A stretch of 64,000 nt of DNA from Anthocerotibacter panamensis C109 (lineage in GTDB: Bacteria; Cyanobacteriota; Cyanobacteriia; Gloeobacterales; Anthocerotibacteraceae): assembly GCF_018389385.1 (NCBI RefSeq), contig NZ_CP062698.1:747501-811500 (forward strand), in the 5' to 3' direction. The notes beneath the pieces are model-generated. The model was not told the DNA's origin and searched no databases. It saw nothing but the letters and a program-made list of their open reading frames with translations. Positions 15,585 to 29,337 of the stretch are shown here, piece by piece. Position numbers and translations under genes: made by a program. Position 1 is the first letter of the stretch. Each line of letters opens with the position of its first letter.

Positions 15585-15597
15585 GTGCCATTGGCAC
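15585..15597 (+). terminator. Weak terminator after the flippase gene
   Basis: GTGCC-ATT-GGCAC forms a short hairpin 11 bases past the stop, followed by a pyrimidine run CTCTTTCTTT. Stem length is marginal. Confidence 0.35.
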
Positions 15598-15672
15598 CTC
15601 TTTCTTTGAAAGATCTACCTTGTTCTTTGATAGAAGTACCTTGATTGAAGATGAAAGTACCTTTTTCTCTAA
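15597..15672. repeat. Short degenerate repeats with A(G/T)TACCTT core
   Basis: Three loosely spaced copies of a CTACCTTG / AGTACCTTG / AGTACCTTT motif, each followed by a TTCTTTGA or TTGAAGA-like spacer. Read on the minus strand they encode a GTSIKEQ/GRSFKER-like heptad pattern. They resemble the short tandemly repeated sequences common between cyanobacterial genes and mark the edge of the accessory island. Confidence 0.4.
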
Positions 15673-15738
15673 AATGCCTATCTATGTGAACGAGGTAGAG
15701 TGACAAAAGAGAAGTCTTGGCAAAAAAGCGGTGCTTGT

Positions 15739-15990
15739 TTAACTACGAGCCGCCTGAGCCCACAGCAAGTCTTCTTGGGCTAACATCCGTGTCAACTCAT
15801 GAACAGAGGGCACTTGCCGCCATAGCAAAGTCAGTACTGCCGCCAACGTTAAAGGTAATGTCAGAATCCGCTCCCGCAAGCCCAAGGTGCGATAGTAAGC
15901 GAATTGGCTGTAGAGCCTGGGCGTCAGTAGGTCTTGCAGGTGTGCGGCAATCGCTTCGTTGTCCGGGCTAGGGGCATGCGCTGCGATCTA
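15739..15990 (-). pseudogene. Transposase N-terminal fragment
   Basis: On the minus strand the open frame reads PDNEAIAAHLQDLLTPRLY, then a segment with RTLGLRERILTLPL, LLWRQVPSVHELTRM and LAQEDLLWAQAAR before a stop. This looks like the N-terminal ~75 residues of a cyanobacterial DDE transposase of the kind annotated IS4-like. The catalytic domain is missing, so it is a relic. Its 5' side runs into the GTTGGGC core at 15998. Confidence 0.6.
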
Positions 15991-16005
15991 ATTACTGGTT
16001 GGGCC
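15989..16005 (+). repeat. attC 3' half-site (GTTGGGC core)
   Basis: TAATTACTGGTTGGGCC carries the core GTTGGGC (15998-16004), a perfect GTTRRRY match, preceded by ACTG as in the arms of the intact sites at 21517 and 27598. A near-identical 17-base word recurs at 28573. The HAD gene begins 16 bases later, as expected at the 5' edge of a cassette. The partner half-site is not evident. Confidence 0.45.
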
Positions 16006-16019
16006 GCAATGGAAACACA

Positions 16020-16862
16020 ATGCACGAAATAATCGCTGTAATTTTTGACTTCGATGACACCCTTGCACCTGATACCACATCAGGTTTCATAACAAAGCAT
16101 GGCATTCATGCTGAAGAGTTCTGGCTAAAGCAGGTGAATCCGCTGTACGCTAACGATTGGGATCCGGTTCCAGCATATCTATACAAAATGATCGAGGCAG
16201 GAAAATCAGGCTTGCTCCCACTCTCCAAAAGCGAACTTGAAAAATGGGGCACTGAAGCACCATTGCATGAAGGAACTGAAACCATTTTCCGGCGGCTTCG
16301 CACTACTGTAGAGGACGTAAACCCCAAGGCTACGTTAGAATTTTATGTAATAAGTAGCGGCATTGGTGATATACTCCGTAGTACGGAAATCGCTACAGAG
16401 TTTAAAGATATTTGGGCTTCAGAGTTGCATTACAGAGAAGATGGTCTTGCTGAATTTCCAAGGAAAGTCATAAGTTTTACTGACAAAACTAGATATTTAT
16501 TTCATATCCAAAAAGGACTCATTGGAAAACTATCACGCGGCAAGCCATTGGATGTAAACCAGAAATTTGGCCTAGAAGACCTTCGCATCCCTTTTTCAAA
16601 TATGATCTTTGTGGGTGACGGCCTAACCGATGTTCCATGTTTTTCACTCCTGACTAAAGAAAAGGGAATGGCAGTCGCTGTTTATGATCGAAAACATGTT
16701 CAGAAATGGGAACGAGCTTATCAATTTATCGCTGAGAAACGAGTGTCAACACTCTATTCTGCAAACTACAGTGAAGGAAGCGACCTTTCAAATTTCTTAG
16801 TCATGGCGGTACGCAATCTTGCAGAGCGAATTGCTGTATCAAAATCAGCGTTCAGAGTATGA
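16020..16862 (+). CDS. HAD-superfamily phosphatase
   Basis: 280 residues from ATG 16020. Motif I is DFDDT (Asp10 nucleophile, Asp12 acid/base), a Ser in VISSG gives motif II, a Lys lies between, and GDGLTD near residue 200 is motif IV. A cap domain of about 90 residues follows motif I. The protein is intact. It is AT-rich compared with the flanking GC-rich genes and sits 145 bases upstream of the methyltransferase/HerA/NurA genes, so it probably belongs with them. HAD enzymes dephosphorylate small molecules or nucleic-acid ends; the substrate here is unknown. Confidence 0.82.
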   Translation: MHEIIAVIFDFDDTLAPDTTSGFITKHGIHAEEFWLKQVNPLYANDWDPVPAYLYKMIEAGKSGLLPLSKSELEKWGTEAPLHEGTETIFRRLRTTVEDVNPKATLEFYVISSGIGDILRSTEIATEFKDIWASELHYREDGLAEFPRKVISFTDKTRYLFHIQKGLIGKLSRGKPLDVNQKFGLEDLRIPFSNMIFVGDGLTDVPCFSLLTKEKGMAVAVYDRKHVQKWERAYQFIAEKRVSTLYSANYSEGSDLSNFLVMAVRNLAERIAVSKSAFRV

Positions 16863-16955
16863 GATCGGCATGACTGAAAGTAGGTGTTGGCTGTTTAGCA
16901 CGATAGTAGGAGATATGCTTGAATTTTCTAGGTTTGGAAAAGCACGTTTACAGTG

Positions 16956-16970
16956 ACTCTTTTAAAGAGT
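16956..16970. promoter_or_regulatory. Inverted repeat upstream of methyltransferase gene
   Basis: ACTCTTTTAAAGAGT is an inverted repeat with 7-base arms around a single central base, 36 bases before the GTG start of the methyltransferase. It could be an operator or part of a terminator for the HAD gene. No controller protein gene is seen beside it. Confidence 0.35.
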
Positions 16971-17006
16971 AAAATACTTTAACAGATACCCACAGGATAA
17001 GGACTA

Positions 17007-18020
17007 GTGATTCTAGCCCAGCGCACAAAATCAGGTCGATACTACGTTGGCCAAAGCGAAACAATTTTGGATTGTCGAGCATTTCGTAGTCTGCGAGGAA
17101 AAATTCAACTGATTTTAACTTCACCTCCTTTTCCATTAAATGAGAAGAAAAGCTATGGCAATATGACTGGTGATAAGTATCTTGAATGGTTTGCCAATTT
17201 AGCGCCCATATTTGCGGAGATGTTGACTGGTGATGGCTCAATCCTCATTGAGATGGGAAATGGGTGGGAACCTCAACGACCCGTCCAATCCTTGTTGCCA
17301 CTTAAGTCTTTGATGAGTTTTGTAGAAAATGAAAGAGCTGGACTTCGGTTGATTCAGCAATTTGTTTGTTATAATCCCTCTCGATTGCCTTCTCCTGCTC
17401 AATGGGTAACTGTTAACCGGATAAGAACGGTAGACAGCTTTACTAATATTTGGTGGATGGCAAAATCTGACTTTCCAAAAGCAGATAATTCAAAAGTTTT
17501 GCGGCCCTATAGCGATTCTATGATTAGACTTTTGGATAAAAAGGATTTTAATTCTGGCAAACGACCATCTGGACATGATATTAGTAGCAGTGCTTTTCTA
17601 CGAGACTGTGGTGGTTCAATTGCACATAATTTCTTTGAAGTTGAGAGCATGGACTCTAATCGTGATGTTCGCTTGCCGGATCCTTTTAATGCTTTTTCAC
17701 TATCAAATACCATCTCAAATGATTTTTTTGCGAGAACCTGTAAAGAGAGGGGAATTAAGAAGCCTCATCCTGCTCGTATGCAAATGGGGTTGGCAGCATT
17801 TTTTATTCAATATCTTACTGATCGTGGAGACTGGGTTCTCGATCCATTTGCTGGAAGTAATACAACTGGATACGCATCTGCTCGACTTGGTCGCAAATGG
17901 CTAGCGATTGATGCAAAAGAAGAATATGTTGAGCAGTCAAAAATTCGTTTTGAAGACCCCGCCTTGGTAAACTTAAAGGAGCCAACCAATGAATATCAGC
18001 AGACAGCTCACTCAAACTAA
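17007..18020 (+). CDS. DNA methyltransferase, N4-cytosine type (PvuII-like)
   Basis: 337 residues from GTG 17007 with AAGGA just upstream. The catalytic motif IV is TSPPF (38-42) near the N-terminus, and the SAM-binding motif I is DPFAGSNTT (279-287) near the C-terminus. This order defines beta-class methylases, and TSPPF plus GSNTT resembles M.PvuII, which makes N4-methylcytosine. No cognate restriction endonuclease gene adjoins it; instead the gene overlaps herA by 32 bases. It may mark self DNA for the HerA-NurA pair. The recognition sequence is unknown. Confidence 0.85.
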   Translation: MILAQRTKSGRYYVGQSETILDCRAFRSLRGKIQLILTSPPFPLNEKKSYGNMTGDKYLEWFANLAPIFAEMLTGDGSILIEMGNGWEPQRPVQSLLPLKSLMSFVENERAGLRLIQQFVCYNPSRLPSPAQWVTVNRIRTVDSFTNIWWMAKSDFPKADNSKVLRPYSDSMIRLLDKKDFNSGKRPSGHDISSSAFLRDCGGSIAHNFFEVESMDSNRDVRLPDPFNAFSLSNTISNDFFARTCKERGIKKPHPARMQMGLAAFFIQYLTDRGDWVLDPFAGSNTTGYASARLGRKWLAIDAKEEYVEQSKIRFEDPALVNLKEPTNEYQQTAHSN

Positions 18021-20139
18021 TCTCTTCAAGCGCAAGCAAGAAGGTGAAGATGTTCGATGGGACACAGGTCTTTTTGTTGGTCGCCCGTTTCGGCTAACTT
18101 ACAGTCGAGCAGAAATTTTAGTTGCTGATGCTTGGAAACAAAGAGCTAAAGGCATTCCACAAGGGTGTTTTCTTCTTGCCTATTATGATAATGAGCCGAA
18201 CGATCAGAAAAATGTTGAAGCAATTCTTCTTCGTGTAATTCAACCAACTAGATTGCCAACCGATCAGGAAGTTATTAGCAGCATGGTTGAGTACTACAAA
18301 GATGATATTCGCACAGGCACAAATCAGCGATCACAACTAGATACATTTACCCGTTATGAGTTTTCATTCAGTGGTCTGGAATGCTCAGTTCTGGGTTCTT
18401 TCTACATTGGCGAGCAAGATAAAACACGCTTCGGCGCAGATCTAGAAAATTTCTACAGCGCCCATAACTATTCCGTAATTAAACCTTCGCCTGATATTTT
18501 GAAAGCCATTGTCAACTATCGAGAAAGTGGTGCGCCTGGAGGCTCTGGCGATATCAAAATTGGGAAGGTTCGTTACAGTTCTAGCCGACGCTTTCAGCAG
18601 ACTGAAGTGGATATGCCTGTATATGTGCAAGCTCCAGACTTTGCTGGCAAACGGACAGCTTTGTTTGGTATGACGAGAACGGGTAAATCTAATACAGTGA
18701 AGAAAATTATTCAATCCTGTGTGGAGATGAGTGATAACGCTCCATTTCAGCTAGATAAAGATACTGAAAGCCCAGAGGAAGTTCTCAAACCTCTTACTGA
18801 AGATAAAAATCCTAAATACCCAATAGGACAAATTATTTTCGATATCAACGGTGAGTATGCTAATCCTAACTTGCAGGATCAAGGTACGGCAATTTTTGAT
18901 CTATATAAAGAGAAGACGGTTAGATATTCGACTGTTCCAAAAGAAGGTTTTAGAGAGATGAAGGTTAACTTTTACGGGGATATTCAAACGGGCTTTGAAC
19001 TAATTCGGTCTTATCCGGGGATTGCAACTGATAATACTAGATTTGCTAGCAACTTTAAGAGTGTTCAATTAGATCCACCTAAAAATTACGAAACAGATAA
19101 GTTTAGCTCTGAAGCTCAACGTTATGAGAGGCGCATTGCAGCATATTTTTGTTGCCTCTATCGTGCTGGGTTTCAACCTCCTAATAATTTGCGTGTACGA
19201 TTTAGCACCAATAAGGAAGTTCGGGATGCAGTCAATCAAATGCCGGGTGTTACTGTAGAGCCCAAAGAAGCGGACAAGCGAAGAGGGATTCTGGATCTTT
19301 CATTAGAACAGGCATCTACTTGGTGGGATAATCTTTGGAAGGCTTACACTCCTACATTAGGGAAAAAGCAGAAAAAAGCCTCACAATCTAGTCCTAATTC
19401 TAATGATGACGATGATCAAGGAGAATCAAAAGAATGGGCTGATGATGATTTAAAAGCACTCTTAGTAATGTTGACTCGACGTAGAGAGCCTGGTGAATCC
19501 TCCTTACTCTGTAATGGATACAGGATTCTATCTAGCATTAAAGAACAGCATACAAGCACAGTCCAAGATCCATTTGAACAGGATATTTTAAAGAATCTGA
19601 GAGAAGGAAAAATTGTGATTGTTGACCTCTCTCTGGGAGATCCAAACATTCAATCTTTATTTAGTGAGCGAATATGTCGAACCGTTTTTAACGATGCAAT
19701 CCTTCGTTTTACGAGTACACTTCCAAATAATTTCATTCAATTCTATTTTGAAGAGGCTCACAACTTGTTCCCTAAAAAAGATGATAAAGATCTTTCTCAA
19801 ATTTATAATCGATTGGCAAAAGAAGGAGCTAAGCTCAATCTTGGACTAATTTATGCAACTCAAGAGGTTAGTTCTATTAGCAGCAACATTTTAAAGGCTA
19901 CACAAAATTGGTTTATTTCTCATCTCAATAATGAAGATGAAATCAAAGAGCTTCGGAAATATTATGACTTTAGCGATTTTACTGAAAGCTTAATTCGCTT
20001 TAGTCAAGATACAGACAAAGGATTTGTTCGAATGAAGACGTACAGTAACCCATTTGTCATTCCAGTTCAGATAGATCGCTTTCCCCCTGAAAAACCTCCC
20101 ACACTTAATCTTCGAGAAAACAATGGGCTATCCAAGTAA
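17989..20139 (+). CDS. herA: HerA-like DNA translocase ATPase
   Basis: 716 residues from ATG 17989, with a strong AAAGGAG site. A HAS-barrel-like N-terminal region (to ~190) is followed by Walker A GMTRTGKS (227-234), Walker B IIFDINGEY (282-290) and the later FYFEEAHNLFP and IYATQEVSSIS motifs, all typical of HerA in the FtsK-HerA class. A charged low-complexity linker (about 465-485) is inserted. HerA hexamers drive DNA through the NurA nuclease. The gene overlaps both the methyltransferase (32 bases) and nurA (17 bases), indicating an operon. Confidence 0.92.
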   Translation: MNISRQLTQTNLFKRKQEGEDVRWDTGLFVGRPFRLTYSRAEILVADAWKQRAKGIPQGCFLLAYYDNEPNDQKNVEAILLRVIQPTRLPTDQEVISSMVEYYKDDIRTGTNQRSQLDTFTRYEFSFSGLECSVLGSFYIGEQDKTRFGADLENFYSAHNYSVIKPSPDILKAIVNYRESGAPGGSGDIKIGKVRYSSSRRFQQTEVDMPVYVQAPDFAGKRTALFGMTRTGKSNTVKKIIQSCVEMSDNAPFQLDKDTESPEEVLKPLTEDKNPKYPIGQIIFDINGEYANPNLQDQGTAIFDLYKEKTVRYSTVPKEGFREMKVNFYGDIQTGFELIRSYPGIATDNTRFASNFKSVQLDPPKNYETDKFSSEAQRYERRIAAYFCCLYRAGFQPPNNLRVRFSTNKEVRDAVNQMPGVTVEPKEADKRRGILDLSLEQASTWWDNLWKAYTPTLGKKQKKASQSSPNSNDDDDQGESKEWADDDLKALLVMLTRRREPGESSLLCNGYRILSSIKEQHTSTVQDPFEQDILKNLREGKIVIVDLSLGDPNIQSLFSERICRTVFNDAILRFTSTLPNNFIQFYFEEAHNLFPKKDDKDLSQIYNRLAKEGAKLNLGLIYATQEVSSISSNILKATQNWFISHLNNEDEIKELRKYYDFSDFTESLIRFSQDTDKGFVRMKTYSNPFVIPVQIDRFPPEKPPTLNLRENNGLSK

Positions 20140-21475
20140 AAATAATCGCCGTCCTTTTGAGGCTGCTAGCAAGGCAGCCCATCATCATATAGTTAATGAT
20201 CCTGAAGTTCAGCGATTAATGAGTAGGATTCATAAACCGCCACGAGCAGAAGAAATCCCTTTAGGAACTATAACTGTCACGTTTGAATCACCTAAAGACA
20301 ATCAAATTGAAGCAATAATTGCTGTGGATGGTGGTTATACAGAAGCCATTCTTGAGAAGGACTTTCCTTCAAGAACTATGCATTTTCTGCAATTTGGAGC
20401 TCTACTATTTAAGCAGGAAGATTTAGCGAAGCTTAACGCTTCTGCATTTATTGCGCCAGAAGATATGGCTAAGTTAAAAAATATAAATCGGCTTAAACTA
20501 GCTTTACCGACAAAAAATGTACGTTTTCAGGATGAAAACACTCTCAAAGGAAGCGTCCTAAAAGCAATTTATGAATTTTTTATAAGAAGCACATTGGCCG
20601 AAGATCAAAGCTTAATAGATACGCTTGCATGGTTTGTTTTTCGGCGATACAAACAAAATCAGAGAACGGAAGATGACAAGAGGTGGAATCTAGCTACAAA
20701 CCCTTTAAGTTCATTTGAAAATTCGATCTTACTTGTTGAGCAAAATATGGACAGAAACTACACTTTTCCTTGCCCTGAAACAGGAGGAAGGATCTATCTG
20801 ACAGATGTCTTTCGATTGCACGAAGTTATAGACGAAGATTTTGGGGCTACAGGGATAATGGGCTATTTAGTCAATGTCGTTGAACATTTAATTATTATCC
20901 ATATAATTCGCCAGCTTCTTCGTTATCAACCAGATACTCTAAAAAAAGTTTTCTTCATTAAAGATGGGCCAACAGGCTTTTTTGGGCAGACAGCTAGGAT
21001 GCACGAACCAATGCGTGATTTGATTAACTGGCTTCTAGATAAACACAACATAGTACTAGCTGGCCTTGAGAAAAGTGGAGCATTTGTAGATCATGCTCAA
21101 TCAATTCAACAAAATTTAGAACCTGGGAAGGTGCTTGTCCTAACCGACGATTATATTTATCGCTATATTCTTCCTGGTCCTGGCGATCCACATCGTCCCT
21201 ACGCTTCCACTAGCAACTATGGTCATAAAGTTATCTTCAAGGCTCGAAATGGTCAAATGTATGTTGTTTCAATTCCAGTGAGAGAGCTGAAAAAACAGCC
21301 AACAATTGATGATTTCCCTAATTTGCAGGTAATATTGTCTAACGTAGAAGCGTTGCATTGTGATATGTACGACTCAGCATTATTCCCAGTAGCTCTGGTC
21401 AATAAATTAGTTAGTTTATCAGCATATCCTAGCCAGAGGATTCTACAGAAATTTGCAAGTCATTCTACGAGTTAA
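20123..21475 (+). CDS. nurA: NurA-domain nuclease
   Basis: 450 residues. NurA metal-site motifs are visible: AVDGG with Asp69, FIKDGPT with Asp281, and GLEKSG at 314-319. A C-terminal LVNKLVSLSAYPSQ segment completes the domain. NurA is a DNA nuclease that works in complex with HerA, and in several bacteria the pair gives anti-phage defence. The start overlaps the herA end by 17 bases. An attC-like site begins 41 bases after the stop. Confidence 0.87.
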   Translation: MGYPSKNNRRPFEAASKAAHHHIVNDPEVQRLMSRIHKPPRAEEIPLGTITVTFESPKDNQIEAIIAVDGGYTEAILEKDFPSRTMHFLQFGALLFKQEDLAKLNASAFIAPEDMAKLKNINRLKLALPTKNVRFQDENTLKGSVLKAIYEFFIRSTLAEDQSLIDTLAWFVFRRYKQNQRTEDDKRWNLATNPLSSFENSILLVEQNMDRNYTFPCPETGGRIYLTDVFRLHEVIDEDFGATGIMGYLVNVVEHLIIIHIIRQLLRYQPDTLKKVFFIKDGPTGFFGQTARMHEPMRDLINWLLDKHNIVLAGLEKSGAFVDHAQSIQQNLEPGKVLVLTDDYIYRYILPGPGDPHRPYASTSNYGHKVIFKARNGQMYVVSIPVRELKKQPTIDDFPNLQVILSNVEALHCDMYDSALFPVALVNKLVSLSAYPSQRILQKFASHSTS

Positions 21476-21516
21476 TTGTTTTTTCACAGCACCAAATAAC
21501 AACAACTTATAAGCCA

Positions 21517-21582
21517 GCCTAACCAGTCGCTTCACCTGACATCGCCCGGAATGGGCGTTGCAGGTGAGCTTGGTTGTTAGAA
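21517..21582 (+). repeat. attC-like integron recombination site
   Basis: A 66-base imperfect palindrome runs from GCCTAAC (an RYYYAAC core) to GTTAGAA (a GTTRRRY core with the last base off). Inside, CACCTGAC and GCAGGTGAG pair as L-boxes, CGCCC/GGGCG closes a short apical loop, and AACCA pairs with TGGTT next to the cores. Sequence and size match 27598-27663 almost base for base. It divides the NurA operon from the giant helicase gene. Confidence 0.78.
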
Positions 21583-21615
21583 ATTGACTCAGCATTGCGC
21601 CAAGAAGAAGGAAAG

Positions 21616-24600
21616 ATGAATTCACCTCGTGACCTGCTCAAGGGCTTGCTCGAATATATCGAAGAGCAAGCAAAAGAAATTGACCCGAAAGGTTATCGCC
21701 TCTCTGCTGCGCAAGGGTTTGTTCATCGCAATACCGACTTCGCGGAGCTGCCCGGCCTTGAGTTTGATCTTCGCCCAGAGGGCGACCACATCTGGCTACA
21801 TCTGGCGCGCCTCGAAGCCCATCGCCCCCCAAGTGCTCCCGACCTGTTCAAGGGGCTATTCAAAGTCAGCAATAACCCGTTTGGTGCGCCTCCCGCACTG
21901 GATGAAGGCCATCTAGTGACTTGGATTGCCCAGCATGAATCCAAGCCGGATCCTCAGTTGGCAAAAACTCATGACGCAAAGCTTAGGCAAGAACAGTTGA
22001 GGCAGAAAGCCAAAGCAGCCCTTCAAGAATACTTGCCTCAATGGAAAGCTTGGGCTGAGGGAGAGCGTCCGCGTCGAAAAAGCATCTCCCTTTATGGCGA
22101 TCTGTTCGCCTTGAAGCATCAGATCGAAGCAGAAGAAACAGCCAAACCACAAGAACTCGTATGGGGTATTGGCGTTGCCTCTTGGCAGATTCCGTTCGGC
22201 GAAAGCACCGTCAGCTTTGAATATCCGCTACTTACTCAAGCCGTCGAAATTTTCATCGACGAGAGAAGCATGGCACTGGAGATTCGTCCCCGATCTACTG
22301 ATACGCGAGTGGAAATGGATGCATTCGTTGCTTGCTCAGTGCCCGGTGCTGCTGATGTTGAGCGCGCCATCAAAGAACAACTCCAAAGACATAACGAGCG
22401 GCCAGTTACCCCATTTGATGCTTCGAGTTATACCGATGTCCTCAAGCTCGCCGCATCAAACTTGGATAGCAATGGCAGCTATCGAGAGGTGCTTACAACG
22501 GGAGACCCTATTCCTGCCCCAGGCACCGACTTGATAGTTGCGGATGCCTGGGTTCTACTTTCACGACCGCGCACTACTCACTATCTGACGGATGACTTAA
22601 AACGCCTGAAGGACAAGTTGCCTTCCGGTTGCGATATTCCAATTGGCCCGCTTGCCCTTGTCACCCCGCCTTCAGACAAACCAGTTGAATTCGAGACCAT
22701 TCATTTCCGGGGACTTTCAAGTCGCGGATCAAGTCACGGCAAGATAGAAGAGCTTTACTTTCCCCTGCCTTACAATGAAGAGCAGGTCACCATCATTCAA
22801 CGGCTGGAAAAAGCTGCGGGCGTGGCTGTACAAGGGCCACCAGGTACAGGCAAGACTCACACTATCGCCAATGTCATTTGTCACTACTTGGCGACTGGTA
22901 GACGGGTTCTCATCACTTCACGCGGAGAACCCGCACTTGAAGTACTACAGTCCAAAATACCAGAGGAAGTCCGCTCCTTGACCGTGGCGCTTATGGCCAG
23001 CGACCGCGAAGGTATCCGTCAATTTCAGGCATCAATCGAAGCAATTCAGCATCAGGTCTCACAGTTAAATCCTGAACAGACACGCCATGCTATCGCAACA
23101 CTGGAAGGCGCCATTGATCGTGCCCATCACGAACTTTCTTCTATTGACACACGCATTGATGCAATTGCGATTGCTCAACTTTCAGAGGTGGAAGTTGATG
23201 GCGTACTGATGCGCGCACAGGAACTTGCTGAGTTGGTTACTTCAGGATTGGAACAGCATGGCTGGTTTGATGATGACATTACACTCGCACCGGAAAATGC
23301 CCCCCCACTGACCGAGGAGGAGTCGGGCAAACTCCGTGAAGTACGACGGAAGGTCGGACAGGATTTGGTTTATGTGCAGGCCAACTACCCATCTGCTGAC
23401 TCACTTCCCACCACAACAGCAATCGCCGAATTGCACGAAGTGCTATCCAGTATGCGGACGATTGAGGCGGAGGTTGAACGAGGCGACCTGATCGATCTGA
23501 AGGCGACAACCGCCGAAGTGCTCATCGCAGCGAGGGAGCTTCTTGAATTGATCGAAGAAGCCCAGGCTTTGGCCGAGGAGTTGGAGTCTACCGATAGTGG
23601 TTGGCCCTTTGATTTGCGAATGAAATGTAGACTGCCGTCGTTTATTTCCGAGCGGCAAGCGCTGGAGTCTTTGTTTTCTGACATTGGGGTACTCATTGAG
23701 GCACGCGCTGAGTTCCTCAAGAGACCAGTGGAATTCCCCGATGCAGGATTGCGCTCCGTAAAAACTCGGGAGGCTGTTGCCCGCGCAGTGGAGACCGGCA
23801 AGCCGTTTGGATTGATTGCCCTTGGGGCGGGCGAGGCGAAAGAGCATATCGCTGCGGTTAGAGTCTCCGGGCTCTCCCCCTCGTCAAAGGAAGACTGGGC
23901 TCATGTGCAGCGGCACGTTGAGCTTGACGAAAAGGTGGTGTCTTTCGTTAGCCGGTGGAACCAGTTTGCAGATGAACTTTCCATCCCCCGCATAGAAGGT
24001 GGCATCCCTGCTTTGCGCCGAATCGAGATGGTTGCCACCATTGCGAAAAAAGCACATCGACTGGCAACAGAATTCGACGCCACATTGCCAAAGAAGGCCG
24101 AGGCTGTGTTCCGTTCGCCTCCAGCCAAAGCGTTGATGGGCGGTTCTGCCGAACTCCATAAAGTCAAGAGCCAGCTACTACGCCACCTTACCAAGGCAGA
24201 ACTATCCAAAGCAGCAACCCAACTCAGCACTTTTCAGGAAAAACTTGCGGGCAAGACGGGGCCTGTATCTATTGCGTTAAAACAGTTCGTCGAACAGCAA
24301 CTTGGATGTCCTGATATTCCTTCTGAGCGTGCCTCCGCACAATACGCAGAGTTCACGGCAGAACTGAGGCGTATTGCGTCGCTATCGGTTGATCTCACAC
24401 GAATCAAGGATTTCGCTGCCCGCATTGAACAAGCGGGCGCTCCAAAACTGGCCTCTCGTGTCCGTTCTCAACCCGTTGAAATGTCCGGCGAAGACACCGT
24501 TTTTCCTGTTGTTTGGCGGCAAGCATGGAACTGGGCTCGTATTCGAACTTACCTCGACAACATTGAGGCCCGAAACGAATTGCTTGCCCTTTCGGCCAGA

Positions 24601-26187
24601 CGCACAGACCTTGAAGGCGGTCTGTCCCGCCTCTACAAGGACTTGGTAGCCAAAGCTGCATGGTTAGCAACCAAACGCAATGCCACGCAAAAGGTACTCC
24701 AAGCTCTTGCGGGCTATGCAACTGCAATCCGCCGTATCGGACAGGGAACAGGGCCAAATGCAACACGATATCGCAGGGATGCAAGGGAGGCGATGTTGGA
24801 TGCCGCAGGCGCTGTCCCTTGCTGGATCATGAGCCACGCACGCATATCGGAGGCCATGCCGCCGGATATTGGAGCGTTCGATCTTGTAATTGTCGATGAA
24901 GCGAGCCAATCCGATCTCTGGGCACTGCCTGCCATTTTGCGCGGCAGAAAGATTCTTGTGGTGGGCGATGATAAACAGGTGTCCCCGGATGGAAGCTTTA
25001 TCGCCGGCCAGCGGATTCAGGAACTAAAGGTTCGCTTCCTTTCCGAGCAGCCTTACGGGACGGAAATGACACCGGAGAAGTCCCTCTATGATCTTGCGGC
25101 CCGCGTATTTGCTGCTGAGCAAGTCATGCTACGCGAGCATTTCCGTTGTGTCCCACCCATCATTGCTTACGCCAATCGCGTATTTTACCAAGGCGGGATT
25201 CAACCGTTACGTATTCCAAGGGCGTCAGAGCGAATTGATCCGCCGCTTGTCGATATTTACGTCACGGATGGCTTCCGTGATAGGCACGACCATAACGATT
25301 ACGAAGCTCAGGCTATCGCCGAGGAAATTTCGGCGATTCTGAAAAATGAGGCTTTTGTAGGTCGCACGATTGGTGTCGTTTCACTGTTGGGAATCGATCA
25401 AGCCAAACACATTGATTCCATCGTGCGCCAACATTGCGATGCCGCCGAATTACTTCACCGCAAGTTTGAATGCGGGGAGGCTCGCACATTCCAAGGTAGT
25501 GAACGGGATATCATGTTCCTGTCGATGGTTGTAGATAGCAAAAATTGTCGCGCACTTTCTGGTCTGAAGTTTGATCAGCGTTTCAACGTAGCGGCCAGTC
25601 GGGCACGAGATCGGATGTATTTGGTTCGCTCCGTAAGTGCGTCCGATTTGTCGGATAAAGATTTACGCCTTACTTTGCTCAGTCACTTCAACAAGCCGAT
25701 GGTGACTGACAAAGAGGAAGCAGAAGTGCTGATTGACCAATGCGAGTCTGGGTTCGAGCGGGAAGTGTTTTCCATTCTTGCATCTCGCGGGTATCGCGTT
25801 ATCCCACAAGTGAAAACTGGCGCTTATCGCATCGACATGGTTGTTGAGGGCACGGGGGATAATCGCCTAGCTATTGAGTTAGATGGTGATGAATATCACG
25901 GTCCAGACAGATGGCAGCATGACATGAACCGTCAGCGCGTTTTGGAACGGGCCGGCTGGGTATTCTGGCGTTGCTTCGCCTCCACATGGTCACGTCGTAA
26001 GGATGATGTCCTACAAGAATTACTGGCTCGCCTTGCAGCAATGGGAATTGAGCCGATGGGAGCCATAGAATATGCGCCAAGCTTGGTAGAAAAACGGACA
26101 TGGAAGCTCACGCCTGTGGAAGACAATGGACAGGCCGTTGATGAAACGCAAGCTGCGCTGGAACTCGCAATTGCAGGTGCAAAGTAG
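21616..26187 (+). CDS. SF1 (Upf1/Dna2-like) helicase fused to a DUF559/Vsr-like nuclease
   Basis: 1523 residues from ATG 21616, preceded by AAGAAGGA; the frame is open to 21574 but that overlaps the attC core. Walker A GPPGTGKT lies near residue 408. A long helical insert of about 680 residues follows, then motif II VIVDEAS (~1090), GDDKQVSP, and the C-terminal RecA motifs FQGSERDI and NVAASRARDR. Residues from ~1380 form a PD-(D/E)XK fold: FEREVF, YRIDMVV, and ELDGDEYHG (~1421). The architecture recalls defence helicase-nucleases such as Mokosh MkoC, which has a phospholipase-D nuclease instead. It is flanked by attC-like sites on both sides. Confidence 0.87.
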   Translation: MNSPRDLLKGLLEYIEEQAKEIDPKGYRLSAAQGFVHRNTDFAELPGLEFDLRPEGDHIWLHLARLEAHRPPSAPDLFKGLFKVSNNPFGAPPALDEGHLVTWIAQHESKPDPQLAKTHDAKLRQEQLRQKAKAALQEYLPQWKAWAEGERPRRKSISLYGDLFALKHQIEAEETAKPQELVWGIGVASWQIPFGESTVSFEYPLLTQAVEIFIDERSMALEIRPRSTDTRVEMDAFVACSVPGAADVERAIKEQLQRHNERPVTPFDASSYTDVLKLAASNLDSNGSYREVLTTGDPIPAPGTDLIVADAWVLLSRPRTTHYLTDDLKRLKDKLPSGCDIPIGPLALVTPPSDKPVEFETIHFRGLSSRGSSHGKIEELYFPLPYNEEQVTIIQRLEKAAGVAVQGPPGTGKTHTIANVICHYLATGRRVLITSRGEPALEVLQSKIPEEVRSLTVALMASDREGIRQFQASIEAIQHQVSQLNPEQTRHAIATLEGAIDRAHHELSSIDTRIDAIAIAQLSEVEVDGVLMRAQELAELVTSGLEQHGWFDDDITLAPENAPPLTEEESGKLREVRRKVGQDLVYVQANYPSADSLPTTTAIAELHEVLSSMRTIEAEVERGDLIDLKATTAEVLIAARELLELIEEAQALAEELESTDSGWPFDLRMKCRLPSFISERQALESLFSDIGVLIEARAEFLKRPVEFPDAGLRSVKTREAVARAVETGKPFGLIALGAGEAKEHIAAVRVSGLSPSSKEDWAHVQRHVELDEKVVSFVSRWNQFADELSIPRIEGGIPALRRIEMVATIAKKAHRLATEFDATLPKKAEAVFRSPPAKALMGGSAELHKVKSQLLRHLTKAELSKAATQLSTFQEKLAGKTGPVSIALKQFVEQQLGCPDIPSERASAQYAEFTAELRRIASLSVDLTRIKDFAARIEQAGAPKLASRVRSQPVEMSGEDTVFPVVWRQAWNWARIRTYLDNIEARNELLALSARRTDLEGGLSRLYKDLVAKAAWLATKRNATQKVLQALAGYATAIRRIGQGTGPNATRYRRDAREAMLDAAGAVPCWIMSHARISEAMPPDIGAFDLVIVDEASQSDLWALPAILRGRKILVVGDDKQVSPDGSFIAGQRIQELKVRFLSEQPYGTEMTPEKSLYDLAARVFAAEQVMLREHFRCVPPIIAYANRVFYQGGIQPLRIPRASERIDPPLVDIYVTDGFRDRHDHNDYEAQAIAEEISAILKNEAFVGRTIGVVSLLGIDQAKHIDSIVRQHCDAAELLHRKFECGEARTFQGSERDIMFLSMVVDSKNCRALSGLKFDQRFNVAASRARDRMYLVRSVSASDLSDKDLRLTLLSHFNKPMVTDKEEAEVLIDQCESGFEREVFSILASRGYRVIPQVKTGAYRIDMVVEGTGDNRLAIELDGDEYHGPDRWQHDMNRQRVLERAGWVFWRCFASTWSRRKDDVLQELLARLAAMGIEPMGAIEYAPSLVEKRTWKLTPVEDNGQAVDETQAALELAIAGAK

Positions 26188-26188
26188 T

Positions 26189-26255
26189 ACCCAAGAATGA
26201 TAGCGTTCGAGAGGGACACACCAAAAGCGGTGTGCCCCTCAACTTTACGTTAGGC
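26189..26255 (+). repeat. attC-like integron recombination site (second type)
   Basis: 67 bases from ACCCAAG (RYYYAAC with the last base changed) to a perfect GTTAGGC core. The arms GAGAGGGACACACC / GGTGTGCCCCTC pair with one bulged position around a short AAAAGC loop. The sequence TAGCGTTCGAGAGGGAC is reminiscent of classical integron sites and differs from the other sites in this window. It starts directly after the helicase stop codon. Confidence 0.68.
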
Positions 26256-26275
26256 TGCTTCACACGCCATTTGCC

Positions 26276-26602
26276 ATGAGCATCGCAGTCCAGACATATC
26301 CGGTGATGCCGACCCGCTCCTGTAGCTTTTGTCTTTGCTTGCAGGGAGGCAGTGTCTTCGCCGACTTTGACACGGACGATGCCGGCATTATTTCCCTCCG
26401 CAGGGTTTCATTCGATGGCTACGGCTGCTGCGAGGTGGAGTCTACCACGAGGATGAGTTCAGGCGATTCACGTTTGCTTTTGGATGCGATTGCTCGCAGC
26501 GAGTTTGAGAGCGTTCAGGTCGAGGAGGTTTTGCGGAGATACTTTCGAGAGAGCAAGGACGTGATTTGGAGTGACGCTCTGGCAGAGCATGATTTACTTT
26601 GA
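26276..26602 (+). CDS. Orphan cassette protein
   Basis: 108 residues, starting 21 bases after the attC core at 26249, the classical spacing for a cassette gene. It has four cysteines near the start (CSFCLC and GCC), an acidic middle (FADFDTDDAG) and helical C-terminal residues. I do not recognise a family and infer no function. The downstream half-site at 26620 supports cassette status. Confidence 0.55.
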   Translation: MSIAVQTYPVMPTRSCSFCLCLQGGSVFADFDTDDAGIISLRRVSFDGYGCCEVESTTRMSSGDSRLLLDAIARSEFESVQVEEVLRRYFRESKDVIWSDALAEHDLL

Positions 26603-26619
26603 GCCATGACCACACAGCG

Positions 26620-26671
26620 GCCTAACCAGTCGCTGCACCTGACACCGCCCCGTAAGCGGGGGACGAAGCTA
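26620..26671 (+). repeat. Degenerate attC-like site (5' half intact)
   Basis: Begins GCCTAACCAGTCGC and continues CACCTGACACCGCCCC, identical in register to the 27598 site. After the apical CGTAAGCGGGG the sequence departs and no GTTRRRY core follows. The 3' half appears deleted or replaced, with the Rpn-type gene starting 39 bases later. Confidence 0.55.
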
Positions 26672-26709
26672 TAGGATTAGGTAGCTGATAACGGTGATAA
26701 AATCCCCTC

Positions 26710-27561
26710 ATGAGCCGGACAAAGTACGACCAGTTTTCTAAAGAGTTTCTAGCCGGACTCCTTGATCCCTTTGGTACGACCGCCATTGATGTCTCGGTCA
26801 GCAGTGAAGTTCGGGAAATCGATCTGCTTTTTACCCCTTTGGCTGGAACTGATCCCTCCCGTTTAGGATTATTGGGTCGAATTGCCCAAACCCCTTGCAT
26901 CATTGAGCCTTACCGGAATCCACCGGATGATGAGGACATACGAATCTGCTTAATGCGTCTGGCTATTTATGAAGGAGGGCAACGGCGCGAAGCTCGTCGA
27001 GAACAAATCACGTTACCCAAGGAAAAGATCCCCTTGGTTTGGGTAGTCGCACCAACACTGTCACCGAGCTTTTTAGAAGGCTTTGGGGCTGCGGTACGAC
27101 CAGATTGGCCTCAAGGGGTATATTTTCTGCCAGAAAGACTGAGGGCAGTATTGGTGGCAGTCCATCAATTACCTGTAGTGCCTGAAACCTTGTGGCTACG
27201 GATCTTGGGACGAGGACGGGTACAGGGTGAAGCAGTGCGTGAACTTTTGGCCCTACCCGAATCCTTGCCAGAGCGGTCACAGGTCTTGCGATTGATAAAA
27301 AACTGGCAAATTAGAGTACAACAGAATCAGGAGCCGGAGGAAGCAGAAATGGCAGTGCAATTGAGCCAAGCCTACCTAGAGTGGGAGCAAAAGACCAAAG
27401 AAGAAGGAAAACTTGAAGGGCGTGCCGAGGGAGAACAGATTGGGGCAGTGCGCGGGAAGCTGGAAGCTGTACCTCCTCTTTTGCAACGAGGTTTCGCGGT
27501 AGAGGAAATTGCCCAAATACTGGGACTAACTGTTGATCAAGTGAAGTCAGTCCAGACCTAA
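26710..27561 (+). CDS. Rpn-family (PD-(D/E)XK) nuclease-like protein
   Basis: 283 residues. The N-terminus (MSRTKYDQFSKEFLAGLLDPFG, split FGTTAIDVS) and the central PCIIEPYRNPPDDEDIRICLMRL, plus a C-terminal helix with LEGRAEGEQIGAVRGKLE, match the abundant cyanobacterial proteins often labelled Rpn recombination-promoting nuclease or FliH-like. These families are promiscuous and linked to mobile DNA. Catalytic residues are not sharply resolved here, so activity is unproven. An intact attC-like site follows 36 bases after the stop. Confidence 0.6.
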   Translation: MSRTKYDQFSKEFLAGLLDPFGTTAIDVSVSSEVREIDLLFTPLAGTDPSRLGLLGRIAQTPCIIEPYRNPPDDEDIRICLMRLAIYEGGQRREARREQITLPKEKIPLVWVVAPTLSPSFLEGFGAAVRPDWPQGVYFLPERLRAVLVAVHQLPVVPETLWLRILGRGRVQGEAVRELLALPESLPERSQVLRLIKNWQIRVQQNQEPEEAEMAVQLSQAYLEWEQKTKEEGKLEGRAEGEQIGAVRGKLEAVPPLLQRGFAVEEIAQILGLTVDQVKSVQT

Positions 27562-27597
27562 AAAACTCTATCTTCCTTGACCAATGAACTCCCAAAT

Positions 27598-27663
27598 GCC
27601 TAACCAGTCGCTTCACCTGACACCGCCCCGAAAGGGCATTGCAGGTGAGCTTGGTTGTTAGGG
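27598..27663 (+). repeat. attC-like integron recombination site
   Basis: 66-base palindrome from GCCTAAC to GTTAGGG. The central CACCTGAC/GCAGGTGAG L-boxes and CGCCC apical stem match the site at 21517 nearly exactly. The R' core carries the TAA stop codon of the inverted vapC gene. Confidence 0.8.
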
Positions 27664-28068
27664 TTCAAGCCAGTTTTCGACTTTTAGCCTTGGAATGCGG
27701 GAAAATTCCCTTATGTTAGCTGTCACGAGGATTAAGTCCAGAGCTAGGGCGTGGGAGGCGATGAGCATATCATTGGGGCCAATGGGTGTGCCGTTATTTT
27801 CTAGATAGACCCGCAGATCGGCGTAGTAGCGGTCAGCATCAACGGTGAGGGGAAAGATCTTGAGGCTAGAGAGTAACTGCTCAATTTTTGTAGAGAGAAT
27901 GGGTACATTCTTTTTTGCAGCTCCAAAACGGAGTTCACATGCAACCACAATACTGATGGCGAGGGTATCTTCTCCTTTTGTTTTGATGTGCTGCACTACG
28001 CGACCAGCGGGATGTTTGATTAAATCGGACACAATATTGGTGTCGAGTAAATAGCGGATATCTTCCAT
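27658..28068 (-). CDS. vapC: VapC-type PIN-domain toxin ribonuclease
   Basis: 136 residues. PIN catalytic acids are Asp9 in LLDTN, Glu45 in ACELRFG and Asp100 in PNDMLIA. The canonical VTxDxxEF appears as VTANIREF, so the last acidic position is relaxed. VapC toxins cleave tRNA or rRNA and are held in check by VapB, encoded just upstream with one base between. Its final codon and stop lie inside the attC core. Transcription runs against the rest of the cassette genes. Confidence 0.85.
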   Translation of the reverse strand: MEDIRYLLDTNIVSDLIKHPAGRVVQHIKTKGEDTLAISIVVACELRFGAAKKNVPILSTKIEQLLSSLKIFPLTVDADRYYADLRVYLENNGTPIGPNDMLIASHALALDLILVTANIREFSRIPRLKVENWLEP

Positions 28069-28069
28069 T

Positions 28070-28309
28070 TCAAAGATCTATGTCATCAATGGGTATTAAA
28101 GCCTCGTCAATGTTAGGGAACTCTTCTGCCACGGGTTCCCAGGTGGCAAGGAGCGCAAGCAGGGCGGGGCGGGGTACAGGTTCGATGATTAGCCGGTCGC
28201 CTTCTTTACGGATGATGGCTTCATTCCCCGGCAATTGAAATTCACGGGGGATGCGTAGGGCTTGGTTGCGTCCGTTGCGGAAAAGACGGATGTGGCGTTC
28301 AGGGTGCAT
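28070..28309 (-). CDS. vapB: VapB-type antitoxin (AbrB-fold)
   Basis: 79 residues. The N-terminal HIRLFRNGRNQALRIPREFQLPGNEAIIRKEGDRLIIEP is a classic AbrB/VapB DNA-binding swapped-hairpin domain. The acidic tail would bind and inhibit VapC. TGA at 28070 is followed by one base and the vapC ATG, giving an antitoxin-first operon that probably represses itself. Confidence 0.85.
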   Translation of the reverse strand: MHPERHIRLFRNGRNQALRIPREFQLPGNEAIIRKEGDRLIIEPVPRPALLALLATWEPVAEEFPNIDEALIPIDDIDL

Positions 28310-28572
28310 GATGACCTCTTTTTATTCTGGCCTATGCCTCGGCCTATGCTAACATGGTGTATTTGTTTTCTGGGCGTAGGGATTCGATCCCGCTTTTAAA
28401 CTAGGGCTTTTCTTGGAACATTACTATTATTTAATATAATTGCTAAACTTTCATTCAACACGAGCCGCCTGACCAAGACAAACCCACTGTCGAGGAGCTT
28501 TCATGACTACCGCTGCTGTATATCCTTACAAACGGCGCGATATCTTCCATGTGGAGATATGCAGAAACTGTA

Positions 28573-28589
28573 TAATTACTGGTTAGGCC
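28573..28589 (+). repeat. attC 3' half-site (GTTAGGC core)
   Basis: TAATTACTGGTTAGGCC holds a perfect GTTRRRY core (28582-28588) and matches 15989-16005 except for one base. It stands 40 bases before the LprI-like gene. A clear 5' partner core was not found within 130 bases. Confidence 0.45.
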
Positions 28590-28627
28590 CCACACATTTA
28601 ACATTTCCTTATTCAGGCGACTCACAA

Positions 28628-29002
28628 ATGAAATCACTTCTCCTTGCCGTTCTCTGTCTCCTCGCGCCACTGCCGACACTCGCGCAGCAGAACTGCGACA
28701 GACCGACAGATGACTTTGATGGTCTTTACTGCCTAAACAAGATCTACATCGAGACTGATGCAGAACTTAATCAGGTCTATAGAGATCTCGCTCCTCGCCT
28801 GACGCCTAAGGGCAGGTCACGGCTGAAGGAGACCCAATTGGCATGGATCGAGGACCGAAACTCATCTTGCTCCAGGAAAATCGACTCCGGCTTCTACGTA
28901 AACCTCTCTTGCGCCACAAGCTTGACTCGAAGCCGTCTTCAGTTTCTTCAAGAGCGTGTTCGTGAGTGCAAGAGCTCCGGCTGCCTGCCGAGCAAGCTCT
29001 AG
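28628..29002 (+). CDS. LprI/DUF1311-family secreted protein
   Basis: 124 residues starting at ATG 28628, with a signal peptide (positive MK, hydrophobic LLLAVLCLLAPLPTLA, cleavage near AQQ). The mature part has CDRPTDDFDGLYCLNKIY, a repeating ADLNQVYRDL-like helix and W(I)EDRNSSC, with six cysteines likely in disulfides. DUF1311/LprI proteins include a lysozyme inhibitor from Mycobacterium and other periplasmic factors. The function here is not established. Confidence 0.75.
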   Translation: MKSLLLAVLCLLAPLPTLAQQNCDRPTDDFDGLYCLNKIYIETDAELNQVYRDLAPRLTPKGRSRLKETQLAWIEDRNSSCSRKIDSGFYVNLSCATSLTRSRLQFLQERVRECKSSGCLPSKL

Positions 29003-29009
29003 TGTCCTG

Positions 29010-29071
29010 GCCTCTTCTCCGCATCGACCAAGTGGCACCTAACTGGTCGTGGACTCGGACCTTCGTTAGGC
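29010..29071 (+). repeat. Degenerate attC-like site after LprI gene
   Basis: Ends in a perfect GTTAGGC core (29065-29071). Upstream, TCCG...CGACCA pairs with TGGTCG...CGGA, giving an interrupted stem as in attC sites. The 5' core is not identifiable (AGTGTCC region). Function as a recombination site is uncertain. Confidence 0.4.
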
Positions 29072-29083
29072 TGCATTAGTCAG

Positions 29084-29271
29084 CGAATAGCGAATTAAGA
29101 AGAGAAGAGCCGCGAATTGTTTGAGTTAGCGGAACAGATTAATCGAATAGCGAATTCAGGAAGAGAAGCGAATTAGTTTCAGGTGGCTGAACAGATCAAT
29201 CGAATAACGAATTTAGGAAGAAAGATGAACTGGTTTACGGTTGCGAAACTCACCAATCGAATAGCGAACAA
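29084..29271. repeat. Imperfect ~57-bp tandem repeat, about 3.3 units
   Basis: Units start at 29084, 29144, 29201 and 29258 with CGAATA(G/A)CGAA and are 60, 57 and 57 bases long. Each holds a GGAAGA-type purine block and a GAACAGATCAATCG-like joint. Read on the plus strand the unit gives a degenerate QINRIANSGR motif interrupted by stops, so it may be a decayed repetitive peptide gene. The array runs straight into the attC-like site at 29272. Confidence 0.55.
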
Positions 29272-29337
29272 GTCTAACCAGTTGCTCCACCTGACACCGC
29301 CCCGCAAGGGCGGTGCCGCTGAGCTTGGTCGATAGAG
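29272..29337 (+). repeat. attC-like site, last of the array
   Basis: 66 bases from GTCTAAC (RYYYAAC) through CACCTGACACCGCCC and its complement GGGCGGTG to a degenerate end GATAGAG in place of GTTRRRY. It has the same size and internal words as the sites at 21517 and 27598. The GT4 gene of the polysaccharide locus starts 14 bases later. Confidence 0.65.

Follow-up and report, generated by a model that had tools for sequence, protein, structure and literature searches.

The question raised by this locus is whether an integron can carry a whole multi-gene defence system as a single cassette. The stretch of DNA analysed here, referred to as the window, comprises 64,000 nucleotides of the cyanobacterium Anthocerotibacter panamensis C109 (bases 747501-811500 of a single 4,187,797-bp contig, C1), and the element at issue is a unit of four genes that encode a HAD-type phosphatase, a DNA methyltransferase (MTase), a HerA-type ATPase and a NurA-type nuclease. 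Positions are those of the window unless they are prefixed with C1 for the contig or with L022 for the region C1:148001-168000, which contains an intact integron. The unit, designated cassette 1, is probably a genuine and unusually large four-gene integron cassette that occupies the first position at an attI remnant. Its recombination sites were followed with two attC covariance models, R1, which was built from ten similar sites resembling the right-hand site S1, and R2, a mixed model built from fourteen sites. The features on which the argument depends are the following.

15749..15976, minus strand: transposase-like gene fragment, an open reading frame (ORF) with one stop, outside the cassette and abutting the attI remnant
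15971..16004, plus strand: attI remnant including the core GTTGGGC, with the predicted crossover G^TT between 15998 and 15999
15999..21576, plus strand: proposed cassette 1, 5,578 bp and four genes, from the attI crossover on the left to the attC crossover on the right
16023..16862, plus strand: HAD-type phosphatase, PADLOC candidate PDC-S34 (PDLC05002, 239 bits, E 1.6e-71)
16947..16975, plus strand: promoter-like TTTACA-17-TAAAAT before the methylase gene (consensus scan, 10 of 12)
17007..18020, plus strand: predicted DNA methyltransferase of the N6/N4 family (PF01555, 97.7 bits)
17989..20139, plus strand: predicted HerA-type ATPase (PF01935 DUF87, 52 bits; PADLOC HerA)
20123..21475, plus strand: predicted NurA-type nuclease (Foldseek on an AlphaFold2 model)
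21517..21582, plus strand: S1, the attC of cassette 1 (R2 72.6 bits, R1 86.4 bits; the two scores are not independent, since S1 was used to build both models)

In the preliminary description the unit had been placed between two cores of the attC type, and this held on the right and failed on the left, where the core GTTGGGC (15998-16004) belongs, on comparison of its flanks, to an attI remnant and not to an attC. The remnant, which at 34 bp is all of the attI found at the window locus, is identical in 32 of 34 bases to the attI at C1:157107-157140, which lies beside a complete intI, and to the same extent to a further attI copy at C1:3496818 on the minus strand, beside a partial intI. The sequence GGGGC.TG.GCTGCGATCTAATTACTG precedes GTTGGGC and recurs at both of these copies (C1:157.1 kb and C1:3496.8 kb). 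Over the 70 bases upstream of the core the two intI-linked copies are identical, and of the 20 bases nearest to it the window copy shares 19 with them, the likeness fading further upstream where the attI is truncated. Directly after the core all three copies diverge without sustained identity and lead into three different first cassettes. Because the copies match before the core and part after it, the left core is an attI junction.

No intI is present in the window, and the sole complete intI of the genome lies at C1:155438-156367, within a long open frame of 447 aa, and scores 357 bits against a curated cut-off of 265; the array in the window has, to judge from its gene content, lost its integrase. 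The transposase-like fragment meets the attI remnant at a GGGGCA microhomology and is a 90% match to C1:100207-100458, where the copy is longer by an insertion of 24 bp. It is called transposase-like from the appearance of its sequence and not from a database match, and an 80-aa piece of it had no Pfam match. Separately, a segment to the left of the array (15593-15674) matches repeated units at C1:2332548-2332836 and 2601648-2601803.

On the right, S1 begins at 21517 with GCCTAAC and finishes at 21582 with GTTAGAA, in the same orientation as the genes. Its core differs by one base from the RRRY of the consensus GTTRRRY, the fold of its bottom strand has z = -5.2, a value equalled by none of 200 shuffles, and a comparison of copies showed that attC of the S1 type part after the R' core. 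S1-type sites scoring at least 79 bits number nine in this genome and none in 58 other genomes (eight other members of the order included), where the best score was 46 bits, a contrast that is overstated because the nine sites are among the ten from which R1 was built. When the genome was scanned with R2, 24 attC were found at E <= 1e-3, ten of them not used in model building, and all fell into four stretches, one of which contains the complete integrase gene. As a control, R2 was applied to 25 stretches from 17 other integrase-bearing genomes and found attC at E <= 0.01 in nine; the model is sensitive, not complete. The core motif alone is no proof of a site, as the window contains 123 instances of GTTRRRY where shuffles predict 103, and it is the flanks that carry the evidence.

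Between the two borders no further site was detected, as the preliminary description had claimed. With filters off, R2 found no attC at 15999-21516, and R1 gave nothing beyond a 6.4-bit chance match (E = 4.3). No insertion sequence (IS) was seen at the borders of the cassette, nor a transposase partner at the right end. The composition changes at the same places: in 500-bp steps, the G+C content (GC) is 0.52 before and 0.43 after 16000, and 0.39 before and 0.53 after 21500, so that the borders in composition and in homology coincide with the att sites. The cassette as a whole has a GC of 0.40, compared with 0.57 for the window outside the array, and GC at third codon positions (GC3) is 0.29-0.36 in the operon versus 0.64-0.68 in two flanking genes.

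The movement of cassettes within this genome could be followed in the neighbours of cassette 1. A cassette with an LprI gene further along the array (listed below) has a copy in the intact integron, and on the left the two copies part exactly at the core, which is attI-like in the window and of the attC type in the intact integron (C1:158263); on the right they agree up to the attC, and the attC sequences then differ. The Rpn cassette of the window likewise has an 83% relative in the intact integron. These comparisons of copies show, at the level of sequence, that cassettes neighbouring cassette 1 have been exchanged within the genome. It was also observed that the attC at the right end of LprI differs between the near-identical copies, of which the one in the window covers 28582-29331, as if it had been exchanged or evolved faster than the body.

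Taken together, an attI on the left, an attC on the right, no site in between, a common orientation, an intact integrase in the genome and the movement of LprI make the reading of the unit as a cassette well supported. By attI x attC recombination an integrase would have placed the unit at attI, so that cassette 1 would have moved as one unit; later the integrase gene and most of the attI would have been lost, leaving the transposase-like fragment at the break.

The four genes point to a system that combines modification with degradation. The MTase gene overlaps that of HerA by 32 bp and the HerA gene overlaps that of NurA by 17 bp. The HAD protein scored just under the Pfam cut-off for HAD. 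The NurA-type protein of the window had no Pfam match, the NurA family PF09376 was touched by three of its 13 aligned relatives (best E 0.017), and a profile search of the sequences of solved structures gave nothing. Its AlphaFold2 model (pLDDT 74, pTM 0.77) was matched by Foldseek to TdpAB (8wfd_G, E 4e-7), to the HerA-NurA complex of D. radiodurans (7f6d_G, E 4e-5) and to NurA (2ygk, E 1.4e-3), and three of five plasmid relatives are annotated as "DNA double-strand break repair nuclease NurA", the other two being hypothetical. Both halves of a HerA-NurA pair thus appear to be present, the central ATPase domain of HerA and, in the structural model, the NurA fold, and the predicted cognate MTase adjoining the nuclease gives a layout like that of restriction-modification. 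In the proposed mechanism the MTase would mark the host DNA and a HerA ring would feed unmarked invading DNA into the NurA nuclease, the HAD protein being an added passenger or an accessory. Expression may come from the promoter-like sequence at 16947-16975, but this is a weak indication; the scan that found it returned seven such sites in all, fewer than the 14 in shuffles.

Outside this genome the MTase, HerA and NurA genes recur as a block. Among 17 foreign homologous loci, an MTase of the same family lies upstream of HerA-NurA in eight and a 44% MTase lies downstream in two, and at the remainder no MTase of either kind adjoins HerA-NurA or NurA within the stretch examined. The nearest NurA relative by identity (93%) is partial and comes from a metagenome-assembled genome of Acaryochloris. 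The HAD gene was found at none of the 17, three of which (L033, L034 and L036) are contigs that start inside the operon, so that their upstream side is not informative. Relatives of the HAD protein occur in 13 of 386 genomes of the phylum (its own included and two very weak) and in nine plasmid records, and the gene was not beside the MTase-HerA-NurA set in seven further genome neighbourhoods or in the four of the nine plasmid neighbourhoods that were examined. In one stretch with a HAD relative (L063) an MTase match, weak and partial, lies about 7 kb off, and in Methylocystis a HAD relative lies between a Shedu-family gene and HsdR. As to the preliminary reading that a cassette carries a whole operon, the exact crossover borders bear it out, but HAD-methylase-HerA-NurA is not a conserved operon, given these loci and a wide gap with promoter-like sequence behind the HAD gene.

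The 17 foreign loci were also scanned for attC: with filters off the best match reached 13.0 bits (E 0.92) and no site was found, and under the default filters R2 had nothing at E <= 0.01 in any of these loci. Viral contigs had neither a NurA relative nor a copy of the attC pattern. An integrase match above the cut-off was found in 23 of the 386 genomes of the phylum, and one cyanobacterial stretch (L126) has closely spaced attC sites (filters off). Because the operon is low in GC3, the S1-type attC is unmatched in the 58 genomes and the foreign loci lack attC, the simplest reading is that an AT-rich operon entered from outside and was given an attC of the host type in this lineage.

Several other histories could have produced the same arrangement. 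An unlikely one is fusion in place, in which a HAD cassette once stood next to a cassette of MTase-HerA-NurA and the separating attC disappeared, so that the four-gene unit never moved whole. This would account for the failure to find the HAD gene with the operon at any of the 17 foreign loci examined, for its occurrence elsewhere by itself or with other neighbours, and for the 144-bp interval between HAD and MTase, the single wide gap in the unit; a precedent is provided by the LprI composite with its internal degenerate site at 29037-29071. However, no trace of an attC was found in the HAD-MTase gap with filters off, and the HAD gene (GC 0.42) and the other three (0.38-0.41) are alike in their low GC. 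Quite improbable is a history in which the operon entered an older small cassette by illegitimate or IS-driven insertion, so that the att sites predate the operon and did not carry it. The homologous operons without a nearby attC suggest that the module normally moves by other means, and the S1 attC is of the host type, both as such an insertion would have it. Yet the left crossover is just 24 bp from the start of HAD and the stop of NurA just 41 bp from the attC, and since hardly any non-operon sequence, and no clear residue of an older cassette, lies within the borders, such an insertion becomes less likely; the right end is also free of IS, and on the left the attI remnant separates the transposase-like fragment from the cassette. 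An operon bounded by IS was considered as well and rejected, as that fragment is outside the attI remnant and no right-hand partner was seen. Chance placement between unrelated look-alike cores, for which the abundance of GTTRRRY in the window might have spoken, is ruled out for practical purposes by the match of the attI flank, the scores and the fold of the attC and the GC borders.

The preference for a large four-gene cassette has to be held against several observations. Neither a second copy of cassette 1 nor an empty site in other genomes was found in the searches made; the flippase gene of the left flank had matches in none of the eight other genomes of the order, and the glycosyltransferase matches there were paralogues of 28-40%. 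At 5.6 kb the cassette is far above the other measured cassettes of the genome (0.3-2.2 kb, cassette 2 excepted), among them 12 in the intact integron region that span this same range, and the 34 bp of attI left may not be recombinogenic. The HAD gene is unlinked to the other three elsewhere, and the unit may therefore be assembled from two parts. The NurA assignment comes from a model of middling confidence whose query-normalised TM-scores are below 0.5. All of these weigh against the cassette as proposed.

The remainder of the array in the window consists of the following features.

21577..26249, plus strand: cassette 2, 4,673 bp and one gene, a predicted helicase with an MTES_1575 nuclease domain, PDC-S37-like (PDLC05009, 212 bits; PF18741, 109 bits)
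26189..26255, plus strand: attC of cassette 2, of another attC type (R2 38.1 bits, a building member of R2; bottom strand z -3.3)
26620..26687, plus strand: decayed attC of cassette 3, a small cassette (R1 43.7 bits, a building member of R1; R2 16.3 bits)
27598..27663, plus strand: S3, the attC after an Rpn-family gene (R2 71.9 bits, a building member of R2)
28573..28588, plus strand: second attI-like junction, the start of the LprI cassette (TAATTACTGGTTAGGC)
28582..29337, plus strand: LprI cassette with an ORF-less tail, 98.1% identical over 751 bp to L022:10263-11013
29272-29337, plus strand: attC S4 (R2 57.8 bits, outside the R2 building set)

Measured between consecutive sites, the cassettes of the window are 5.58, 4.67, 0.43, 0.98 and 0.76 kb long. 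From the end of S1 (21582) to the start of the next attC (26189) the distance is 4.6 kb, which exceeds a 4-kb spacing rule that the attC sites at 26189-29337 satisfy. The gene of cassette 2 is listed as an ORF at 21574-26187, with a likely start at 21619 and about 1,520 residues. Its relatives on Variovorax plasmids share 58% (full-length) and 40% identity, and no convincing attC was found with them (best 14.0 bits; two of 390 records examined). The decayed attC at 26620-26687 folds no better than shuffles. After S3 a PIN-domain gene lies on the opposite strand, followed by the attI-like junction at 28573, of which three variants (TAATCACTGGTTAG) occur at C1:154113, 2677648 and 150800 with common upstream sequence, which suggests that the genome holds several relict integron platforms. 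The site at 29037-29071, within the LprI composite that moved, is short, degenerate and attC-like (R2 14.2 bits), so that two cassettes apparently travel as one. The ORF-less tail (29064-29335), with repeats of GAATAGCGAA, recurs before several attC (L022:10745-11019, L022:14045-14212 and L025:8753-8934). Cassettes of a defence type are also seen in the intact integron, namely a TIR-domain protein (PF10137, PDC-S35) at L022:2845-3966 and a PDC-S39 protein (861 bits) at L022:11047-12912.

Whether integrons can place a whole 5.6-kb multi-gene modification-and-degradation defence at attI as one cassette is, on this evidence, a finely balanced matter. Integrons may then carry entire multi-gene defences that are much larger than their usual small cargo of single genes. 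In the open-access library that was searched no paper was found on a multi-gene defence cassette or on the combination HAD-MTase-HerA-NurA, which is not described in the passages of PMC10853773 that were examined either. According to PMC8618304, cassettes mostly hold one ORF, two or none also being seen. Integron anti-phage cassettes, both sedentary and mobile, are treated in section 5 of PMC12409362 (which summarises Darracq et al. 2025, Getz et al. 2025 and a parallel study of mobile integrons), where integron defence systems are said to be streamlined to a small size and those of more than two genes to be notably absent. Cassette 1 would be an exception to that reported lack. It resembles those cassettes in that genes of a defence type form attC-bounded cassettes in an array, but differs in having four genes in 5.6 kb, beside a single-gene cassette of 4.7 kb. 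The survey in PMC9668308, which notes integrons in Cyanobacteria, joins attC less than 4 kb apart, and such a rule can hide units of this kind; if cassette 1 is what it appears to be, the reported lack in integrons of defences with more than two genes would be partly an effect of detection, because attC sites are joined only within that distance. The host-type attC would further suggest that an incoming operon was turned into a cassette within this lineage, which gives a handle on the birth of cassettes, and the genome offers material both on that and on the loss of the integrase platform.

The array is also like a CALIN, a cluster of attC without an integrase (PMC9668308), in having no adjoining integrase, but it differs in that an attI remnant is kept and in that more than 4 kb separate S1 from the attC that follows, which would place cassettes 1 and 2 outside the called cluster. 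With the HerA-NurA end-resection complex (7f6d, 2ygk) the unit shares a predicted HerA ATPase and a nuclease of the NurA fold, here joined by a DNA methyltransferase in one string of genes. The closest structural match of the nuclease is TdpAB (8wfd), a pair that is HerA/NurA-like. In the Tdp system the mark is phosphorothioate DNA, and a phosphorothioation enzyme is encoded in the operon. None was found among the four ORFs of cassette 1 (HAD, MTase, HerA and NurA), which encodes a methyltransferase instead, and by analogy the mechanism would be comparable with that of TdpA-TdpB, with methylation serving as the mark of self.

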